Source: Mycoplasmatales bacterium (lineage in GTDB: Bacteria > Bacillota_I > Bacilli_A > Mycoplasmatales > Metamycoplasmataceae). From it: a stretch of DNA of 64,000 nucleotides. Made by a program: the position numbers and the translations under genes. Positions 2,215 to 27,033 of this stretch are shown here, in pieces. The notes beneath the pieces were generated by a model. That model saw nothing but the letters and a program-made list of their open reading frames with translations. It did no database searches and was not told the origin of the DNA. Every line of letters begins with the position of its first letter. Position 1 is the stretch's first letter. The stretch covers positions 1 through 64,000 of the forward strand of contig JABSQT010000002.1 of NCBI GenBank assembly GCA_013215715.1, in the 5' to 3' direction.

Positions 2215-2490
2215 TTAATAAGCTGAAAAATTTGATATGTTTACTTTTTTAATCTTTGAACCTTTTTGTTGTGGATCATGTGTTTCACTTGAGTATTTTT
2301 GAGTAATAGTTTTACTCCCTCCAAAAGAAACAGAACCCGATTTTTGATGAACAGCTTGAAAGATAGCTACTCCAGAGCTAACAACAGTTTGAACTAATGT
2401 TGCAATTGCAGGTATTGCTGCAAGTCAAGCGAATCCACCATAAGTTTTTATTCTTTCTTCTTTTGTCATGGGTATAAATTCTTTTTTCAT
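2215..2490 (-). CDS. Small peptide with GG leader-like motif, possible exported peptide
   Basis: A 91-residue peptide with one TGA-encoded Trp, starting at ATG after a strong GGAGGTG site. Residues 1-19 are charged (MTKEERIKTYGG) and end in Gly-Gly; next comes a hydrophobic stretch of about 25-30 residues (FAWLAAIPAIATLV onward), then a polar Gly/Ser/Lys-rich tail. A charged leader ending in GG before a hydrophobic segment is the plan of peptides cut and exported by C39-peptidase ABC transporters, one of which lies at 25000-27033. Against the double-glycine consensus, -12 (Met), -8 (Glu) and -2/-1 (GG) fit, while -7 (Arg) and -4 (Thr) do not. A small single-span membrane protein is the alternative. 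Confidence 0.7.
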
Positions 2491-2544
2491 TTTCACCTCC
2501 CATAACTATATGTATTTTTTTAATATTAAATTCAAAACCTAAAT

Positions 2545-24632: not shown

Positions 24633-25016
24633 CTATCATTCTAAGATTTTTTCTCAAACTGAAATTGAAGAATATATAACCCTTGCTTCCATAGTACTAT
24701 TCATTGTAAAATCAGCTATCTTCTCCTTTATTGTTAATTCTGTTTCCCCATTTTCTTGTTCTTCAATACTTTCTATTGTTACATCATAATATTTATAACT
24801 AGATTTCAATCTTATTTTCTTTGATTTTTTTATTAAAAACATATCTTGAGATTTAACTAAAAGCTTATCAATACCAACTTTTGAAACAATGACTTTAACA
24901 ACTACATATTTTTCAATTCGTTTCGTTAACACTAAATAAGTTGTAGAAAATAAAGAAAAAAGTATCAAACCAAAAACTACTCAAACTCAATTTTTAATCT
25001 TACTTAAGTGATTCAA
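24633..25016 (-). CDS. Small membrane-anchored partner of the C39 exporter
   Basis: A 127-residue protein with one N-terminal transmembrane helix (about residues 10-32) and a beta-rich, Lys/Glu-rich outer domain. The start is TTG at 25016, 5 bases after AAGGAGGT; this overlaps the exporter's last codons, so the two are translationally coupled. Position suggests an accessory subunit like the HlyD-type proteins of bacteriocin exporters, but it is far shorter than those (about 450 residues) and shows no clear motif. The last TGA before TAG is Trp. Confidence 0.75.
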
Positions 25017-27033
25017 TTGATACCTCCTTACTATCATTCACAAAAATATTATTATGTGAAATCTCTATAAAAAGAGCATCTTCATTATTTTTTTTGATTA
25101 CATTAATGATCTTTTTACATAATTCTATTTCAATATTTTCAAATGCCTCATCTAATATTATTAATTCATATTTTTGTGAAAAAAGACGCAGTAATTGGAC
25201 TATCTGTCTTTGTCCAGATGATAAGTTAGAAGCGTTATTCACCATTTTTTGATCCAATGACAACCCTGCCTTCTCAACTATAGAACGCAAGTTTCATTTC
25301 TCGTATTTTTCAAAAAAACATTCATATTGCTTGATATCACCAGCAGTTATGAAATCAATTATTGATGTATTTGGTAAGTGATCTGATGGATTCACTCTAA
25401 ATATACTATCTCTTATTGAATTCAAATTATAATATTTAGTTTCTAAATTATTAAAATATATACCTGATGTGTGATAATTAGTAACAATAATGTCCAATAA
25501 TGTTGTTTTACCCGAACCATTAGGACCTCTTAAAATGATATTTTTATCAATCACTAATTCTTTTATATTTAATATTGGTTTTCCAGTTTCATAACTGAAT
25601 TCAATTCCTTTTAAAGTTATGGATTTAATTTTCTGTAATTTTTTACCTTTTGGATTAATTTTTTCCTCCTTTAAATCTAATACATATTGCAACATATCCA
25701 TTTCTTTTTTAATTAAAGGATATTTCATAAAAACATTAGCTATCGATGTTGTTGGCTCTATAAAGAAATGAAATATTGATATGTAAAGGATCAAAGAACC
25801 CATGGTCATTTTGTCCTTAATTACATATTGTGTAGCTAATAAGGTTATCAATAATGGCGCTATATTTGTTAGAATATTCTGAATAATTCCATATATATTA
25901 TTGACAATCCAAATTTTTTTATCTATCTTTTTGAATTGATATAAAGTATCGCTTTGTTTAATTAAAAAGAATTGTTTCATAGATGGTTTTCTCAACTGTT
26001 TATCCATCTTCAACGAATCTAAATTAATTGAAGAATAATCTAATTGCTTTTTAATGAAAAGACTATATTTACTATTAATAATTCTTTGACTAGTAAATGT
26101 TAAAATTAATAAGATAATTACCACAATTATAGATATCAAAAATAATTTAATATTTATTCATATTAATATAGAAGATGCTACTAAACAAATTAAAACATCA
26201 GTTGTTAATGAAAAAATTGTTGATGCAATAAATAAAGAGATAGAATCTATAAATGCTGTCCTCCTAATGATGTCACTTCTAGTTAATTTTTCAATTTTTA
26301 ATAACTCTGCATTTTTTATTTTATTATTAAATTTTTGAGTAATTTCCATTGAAATATGTAAATACATTTTATAAATTATAAAATTTTTAAAACCAACATT
26401 TAATGATCCTAGAATACCAATAAGTACAAAACCAATAAAAAGTACAATTAACGTCTTATTTAAGGCTCCTGGGATTATTTGATCCATTATAATTTTCATA
26501 AAAAATGAAGATGAAAATAAAACAATGATAGAAATTAAAATAGAAATTAAAATTCAAGGGATTGTGGATTTAAATTGTGATAAATACTCATACATAGAAT
26601 TGACCTTAATATTCTTATGTGAATAACTTGTTTTTTGAACATGGATAATAACATCTAAAAACTGAAACTGAAATTTTGTAAAAGCAACACTTTCAGTTTG
26701 TCCTGTTATTGGGTCAAGTAATATTAGAGAATTTTTCTTAATTTTTTCTATAACTACATAATGATTCTCTTCTTCATTGCCAATTAAAGCTATTATTGGT
26801 TTTGTTATTTTTAATTTTTTTAAAGCTTCAAAATCACCTTTCATTGGAATCAATTTCATACCAAATGCTTCTGATATCTTGCATAATCCCTCAATATTAA
26901 TACCTTTCTGACCGTATGAAGCTTTTTTCTTAAATTCATTAATATTTATCCATCTATTGTAAAAGTAATTGTGAAAACCTTGCAAAATTGAAATTCCACA
27001 ATCCCTTATATCTTCTTGTTTTTTTATTCTCAT
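25000..27033 (-). CDS. Peptidase C39-containing ABC exporter
   Basis: A 677-residue protein read through three TGA-Trp codons. Residues 1-150: C39 cysteine peptidase with Gln and Cys in KKQEDIRDCGIS (Cys12), His in NHYVVIEK and Asp in LLDPITGQ, so the triad is intact. Residues about 150-430: six-helix exporter membrane domain. C-terminal ATPase: Walker A GPNGSGKTT, signature LSSGQ, Walker B LIILDEAFEN, H-loop SHNN. Such proteins cut double-glycine leaders and export the peptide, usually bacteriocins or signals. No substrate gene is adjacent; the peptide at 2215-2490 is a candidate. Confidence 0.93.

Follow-up and report, generated by a model that had tools for sequence, protein, structure and literature searches.

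What does a C39 peptidase exporter of a mycoplasma carry when no cargo gene lies beside it? The question is raised by a 64,000-nucleotide stretch of contig JABSQT010000002.1 from a Mycoplasmatales bacterium (the window), which encodes an ATP-binding cassette (ABC) exporter with a C39 peptidase domain at 25000..27033 on the minus strand and, unlinked to it, a small open reading frame (ORF) with a leader ending in Gly-Gly at 2215..2490 on the same strand. A preliminary description of this DNA had proposed the small ORF as cargo of the exporter, the two possibly forming an undescribed bacteriocin or signal peptide system. We find that the ORF very probably encodes a precursor peptide that is the cargo of this exporter. 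The prediction is drawn from the double-glycine (GG) type leader, the hydrophobic segment, the conserved core, the aromatic C terminus, the single copy, the vertical inheritance, and the way in which the distribution of the peptide follows that of the C39 exporter.

The predicted precursor peptide and its leader

The gene encodes 91 amino acids in translation table 4, from an ATG at 2488-2490 to a stop at 2215-2217 (all features of the gene are on the minus strand). It is preceded at 2494..2501 by GGGAGGTG, a ribosome binding site read from the sequence, with GGAGG 5 nucleotides upstream of the ATG. The leader, residues 1-19 (2434..2490; MKKEFIPMTKEERIKTYGG), ends in GG and is conserved in the family at positions -15, -12, -11, -4, -2 and -1, where the window peptide has F, M, T, T, G and G; E stands at -8. 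The predicted mature peptide (FAWLAAIPAIATLV...) starts with FAW and comprises 72 amino acids, with an average mass of 7642.6 Da. Its hydrophobic segment, residues 20-48 (2347..2433), is a predicted membrane helix on the basis of hydropathy (grand average of hydropathy +1.36 over residues 20-49) and of a low-confidence AlphaFold helix; the model has a mean predicted local distance difference test score of 57.5 and consists of a single low-confidence helix at 10-48 and a disordered tail. The tail is polar and basic (pI 9.9). It contains the conserved core, residues 50-67 (2290..2343; KSGSVSFGGSKTITQKYS), with the family consensus S-x-x-G-E-[IV]-K-x-K...K-W-[DN], the window peptide having Y where W stands in most family members, and it closes with the aromatic motif NFSAY (2218..2232). 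The 91-residue peptide, 19-residue GG leader, hydrophobic segment, polar tail and strong ribosome site of the preliminary description are thus all present, and its remark that the double-glycine consensus is matched at -12, -8, -2 and -1 only agrees with the M, E, G and G found at those positions.

Recognition by such exporters follows a rule of hydrophobic residues at -15, -12, -7 and -4 together with GG, GA or GS (PMC7018657), and Thr at -4 occurs in a substrate processed by LahT150 (PMC6363468). Measured by the criteria for substrates of peptidase-containing ABC transporters, the window leader has GG, hydrophobic F-15 and M-12 and an acceptable T-4, but R-7 is not hydrophobic. In the window's own family, f1, 135 genomes were searched and 123 peptides were extracted and aligned for column counts. 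Position -1 is G, A or S in all 123 (103, 17 and 3, respectively), -2 is G in 88, -4 is I, L, V or T in 113, -12 is L, I, M or V in 121, and -15 is F, L, M or I, again in 121; at the other end, the last aligned residue is Y or F in 91. The agreement of these leader columns with the recognition rule at -4, -12 and -15 and at GG/GA/GS supports the exporter-cargo reading. We also scanned the 426 small ORFs (30-130 amino acids) of the window with a leader pattern taken from the rule (hydrophobic at -12, S/T/N/D at -11, I/L/V/T/M at -4, G at -2 and G/A/S at -1), which only the 2215-2490 ORF fits. Because of this single match, the homologues in most relatives and a ratio of nonsynonymous to synonymous substitution rates (dN/dS) of 0.13 against the gene of a related genome (G001), the ORF can be regarded as a real gene and not a chance one.

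The predicted partner, a C39 peptidase ABC exporter of 677 amino acids, is a full member of the Mbov_0121 family (NF045998; 669.7 bits against a cut-off of 500). Its C39 peptidase domain (PF03412; 26629..27027, minus strand) has a complete catalytic triad of Cys12, His91 and Asp107. The gene lies between ybeY and rplQ, 22.5 kb from the peptide gene, and no small GG ORF or other candidate cargo was found beside it, which bears out the earlier statement of a complete exporter some 22 kb away without an adjoining cargo gene. It is the only C39 protein detected in the genome of the window. Of the order's 320 genomes, 281 have PF03412, almost always as a single match, and a contig search with the exporter returned one close relative (Mycoplasma todarodis) and two distant ABC proteins. 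No substrate of NF045998 exporters is named in the family model or was found in the literature searched.

Homology, co-distribution and decay with the exporter

A single-sequence search with the window peptide gave matches in 19 genomes at E<=1. With a profile built from 14 clear homologues (the window's own and 13 others), almost every one of the 135 f1 genomes was seen to have one strong copy, at unrelated positions. The core is highly conserved (its G, K and W stand in 121, 118 and 116 of 123 peptides, respectively), and dN/dS ranges from 0 to 0.20 in 23 close pairs, which points to a strongly constrained protein and not a fast-evolving weapon. In a second family, f6, a second profile finds one peptide, divergent, in 51 of the 60 genomes, and other orders of the class encode peptides of 53-60 amino acids with the same core near radC and, in several of these genomes, next to a gene read as valS as well. 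Homology of the cargo was judged by hhalign on profiles of the cargo with the leader removed; values of 95.6% for f1 against f6 and 94.0% against the other orders support homology in both cases, whereas homology to the cargo of a third family, f3, the control, was rejected at 4.9%. An apparent A1-A4 match of 96.6% was due to the leader and the hydrophobic stretch, and comparisons that include the leader were not used for cargo homology. Judged from these comparisons, the peptide gene is old, mostly vertically inherited and present in one copy per genome. Tandem arrangements were seen as well: in one genome of another order, three GG peptides in tandem, with a core of this same type, lie about 400 bases upstream of radC (L336, 1085-1674), and at three loci (L340, L341 and L344) GG peptides that have a C-terminal Cys, matched by the profile through the leader, stand in tandem beside an ABC exporter and more closely resemble a classic two-peptide bacteriocin locus.

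The peptide and the exporter tend to disappear together. In f6 the peptide is missing from 8 of 10 genomes that lack C39 and from 1 of 50 that possess it (Fisher p 1.5e-7, not corrected for relatedness), and the losses are spread over at least three genera; in f11, neither C39 nor the peptide is found in any of 10 genomes. Three genomes with a lost or damaged exporter seem to be in transition between the two states, their cleavage site having mutated. In G186, which has no C39, GG has become GV, and comparison with the peptide of G189, which has C39, reveals two amino acid changes, this one included, and no silent change. The site is EV in G184, in which the exporter is fragmented, and AG in G119, in which it is in pieces. 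The proposal that the peptide is cargo of the unlinked exporter is therefore strongly supported by distribution, co-loss and site decay. The preliminary description had named the presence of the peptide in genomes lacking the exporter as an observation that would speak against its proposal; this occurs in part, a few genomes retaining the peptide without an intact exporter, with a mutated site in three of them.

A second such observation, homologues without GG, also applies in part. In about 32 genomes position -2 is P, V, A, S or T, with -1 still G/A/S and the leader otherwise retained; these genomes form one clade on the exporter tree, and the active site of their peptidase is altered. Immediately following the catalytic His, 33 of 33 exporters of this clade have M, L or I and 56 of 56 others have Y or F; the residue that follows the catalytic Cys is mostly S, versus G elsewhere. 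The catalytic Cys-His-Asp is kept throughout the clade (L157-L189), except in G138 (L181), in which Cys is replaced by Phe. This covariation suggests that peptidase active site and cleavage site have coevolved in the clade.

Several points weigh against the exporter-cargo reading. Position -7, R in the window peptide, is not hydrophobic there and is mixed across f1. Both genes are near-universal in f1, so that their co-presence in this family gives little contrast, and G086 has C39 with no peptide detected. In six genomes (G111, G121, G145, G157, G179 and G193) the exporter is broken or disrupted and the site carries no new mutation. AG is also found with apparently intact exporters (G036 and G109), and G119 is consequently weak evidence. 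The covariation in the clade without Gly at -2 counts only once because the clade has a single origin. Some of the genomes are incomplete, and each exporter pseudogene call comes from a single assembly.

Genomic setting and candidate functions

Neighborhoods were counted as the genes within 2 kb at 130 peptide loci, mainly of f1. In the window, the peptide gene is followed by rplU (L21; 1771..2070, minus strand) and rpmA (L27; 1480..1761, minus strand), which are found within 2 kb at 61 and 60 of the loci, respectively; dprA is found at 36, mostly from one genus, valS at 12 and radC at 4. In f6, most loci read have the peptide directly adjoining rsmI, rplU or both. A valS-radC-rplU cluster is known from Bacillus, and the peptide gene has been kept near such a cluster. 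There was no exporter within 2 kb at any of the 130 loci and no adjacent immunity gene was seen, the recurring neighbors identified being housekeeping genes (rplU-rpmA, valS, radC, rsmI). A promoter scan gave no site scoring above shuffled sequences, the one terminator-like site falls inside the coding sequence of the neighboring gene, and an Rfam scan of the window found two tRNAs and nothing else. Beside rpmA, at 437-1372 of the window, is a protein of 311 residues that looks exported, with a middle part that is hydrophobic and rich in Ala and no convincing Pfam or NCBIfam match. In G012, in which no C39 was detected, a short peptide of 47 amino acids with EAG, perhaps a decaying copy, lies beside rplU (L241, 1474-1617).

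If the window ORF is the cargo, the C39 domain of the 25000-27033 exporter would bind the leader and cleave the precursor behind Gly19; the 72-residue FAW... product would then be carried across the membrane by the transporter. The long hydrophobic stretch and basic tail lead us to expect that the mature peptide would reside in or on the membrane. It could instead be that the ORF encodes a small membrane protein that is never processed, the GG being incidental and the exporter carrying other cargo. This would suit the hydrophobic segment, the non-hydrophobic -7 and the few genomes that retain the peptide without an intact exporter, but G/A/S at -1 without exception, co-loss in f6, cleavage-site mutations in genomes with a lost or damaged exporter, and the lack of a second leader-pattern ORF in the window all make it quite improbable. 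More improbable by far is that the ORF encodes a pilin-like substrate of a prepilin peptidase, as suggested by Gly, then Phe, then a hydrophobic stretch and by one member's very weak match to a family of pilin-like conjugation proteins (E 0.005). On the sequence of the peptide, this candidate was rejected for the missing Glu at +5; the f6 and class-level homologues also lack Phe at +1, and the distribution tracks the C39 exporter.

Among exported cargos, a class II bacteriocin using the same pump to kill competing bacteria would have the same architecture, and one class-level homologue scores high enough for the leader model TIGR01847 and falls just short for TIGR03949; the window peptide itself matches none of the bacteriocin family and leader models of Pfam and NCBIfam. 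An ordinary bacteriocin normally comes with mobility, a cargo that varies and a gene for immunity. Instead, this peptide is encoded once per genome and inherited vertically, its gene lies at conserved housekeeping loci, and it has neither immunity gene nor exporter adjacent, and is under strong purifying selection (the dN/dS values above), with a core conserved across genera, so that the bacteriocin half of the preliminary description is disfavored and we consider it unlikely. A signaling peptide that, like ComC in streptococci, activates a state of recombination or DNA exchange has a somewhat better claim and is still a doubtful one. It draws on the proximity of dprA and radC and on the GG peptides of f3, of which all 8 examined (L253, L259, L260, L262, L264, L265, L150 and L152) match the NCBIfam family MPN313 (NF045747), the scores listed lying under the 100-bit cut-off, with a best E of 7.6e-10. 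MPN313 is presumed here to be the same gene as MG220 (RrlA), an assumption that counts against the signal proposal to that extent. In Mycoplasma genitalium, according to a review, rrlA (mg220) is required for activation of sigma-20 and for recombination (PMC9262362). The f3 cargo, however, has no recognizable homology to that of f1 by hhalign, as given above, NF045747 does not match the window peptide, no receptor is known, a long hydrophobic peptide diffuses poorly, and the proximity of dprA is largely that of one genus. The MPN313-type peptides may themselves be substrates of the f3 C39 exporter, with a possible link to sigma-20 controlled recombination. For the mature peptide of the window we lean, speculatively, toward a conserved self-directed role, as a peptide signal or membrane factor, in preference to the killing of competitors.

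Known systems and biological meaning

The word undescribed in the preliminary description holds, in that no Pfam or NCBIfam family covers the window peptide and the open-access literature searched contained no publication about GG peptides of mollicutes. The f3 GG peptides, which have the same role of one orphan peptide, match the MPN313 model, equated here with RrlA/MG220, whereas the window peptide does not. The window exporter belongs to NF045998, for which the model names no substrate and we propose one here. Class IIb bacteriocins (TIGR03949, cerein 7B) and TIGR01847 members share a GG leader and a hydrophobic helix with the window peptide, which differs in matching neither model, in its single, vertically inherited copy and in having no immunity gene or linked exporter. 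A close parallel in geometry is PCAT1/CtA of Clostridium thermocellum, a C39-ABC exporter with a 90-residue precursor consisting of a 24-residue GG leader and a 66-residue cargo (PMC6959990). Precursor size and leader geometry are similar, but the window-type peptide is unlinked from its exporter, is found in almost every genome of a wall-less family, and has a conserved core and an aromatic end. Pneumococcal ComC/ComA and BlpI/BlpA share the leader rule (-15/-12/-7/-4 plus GG), and there one exporter can serve unlinked peptides (PMC7018657). They differ from the window peptide in that for the latter no regulator, immunity gene or cluster was found, -7 is not conserved in the family, and the sequence is conserved across genera and not polymorphic.

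Most genomes of this gene-poor order keep a C39 exporter, and the conserved peptide is the first likely candidate for its cargo. If this is true, mycoplasmas, which are usually held to lack such peptide secretion, deliver a conserved peptide to the membrane surface or beyond it. In the clade without Gly at -2, nature has provided an experiment in protease-substrate coevolution. We tentatively propose, at somewhat less than even odds, that Mollicutes and related Bacilli possess an ancient core-genome system of one C39 exporter and one unlinked GG peptide, a conserved signal or membrane factor and not a weapon, which possibly controls recombination, and of which the exporter and the cleavage site have changed together in one clade. 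The MPN313/RrlA lead would link such peptides to the way in which antigenic variation and the exchange of DNA are controlled.
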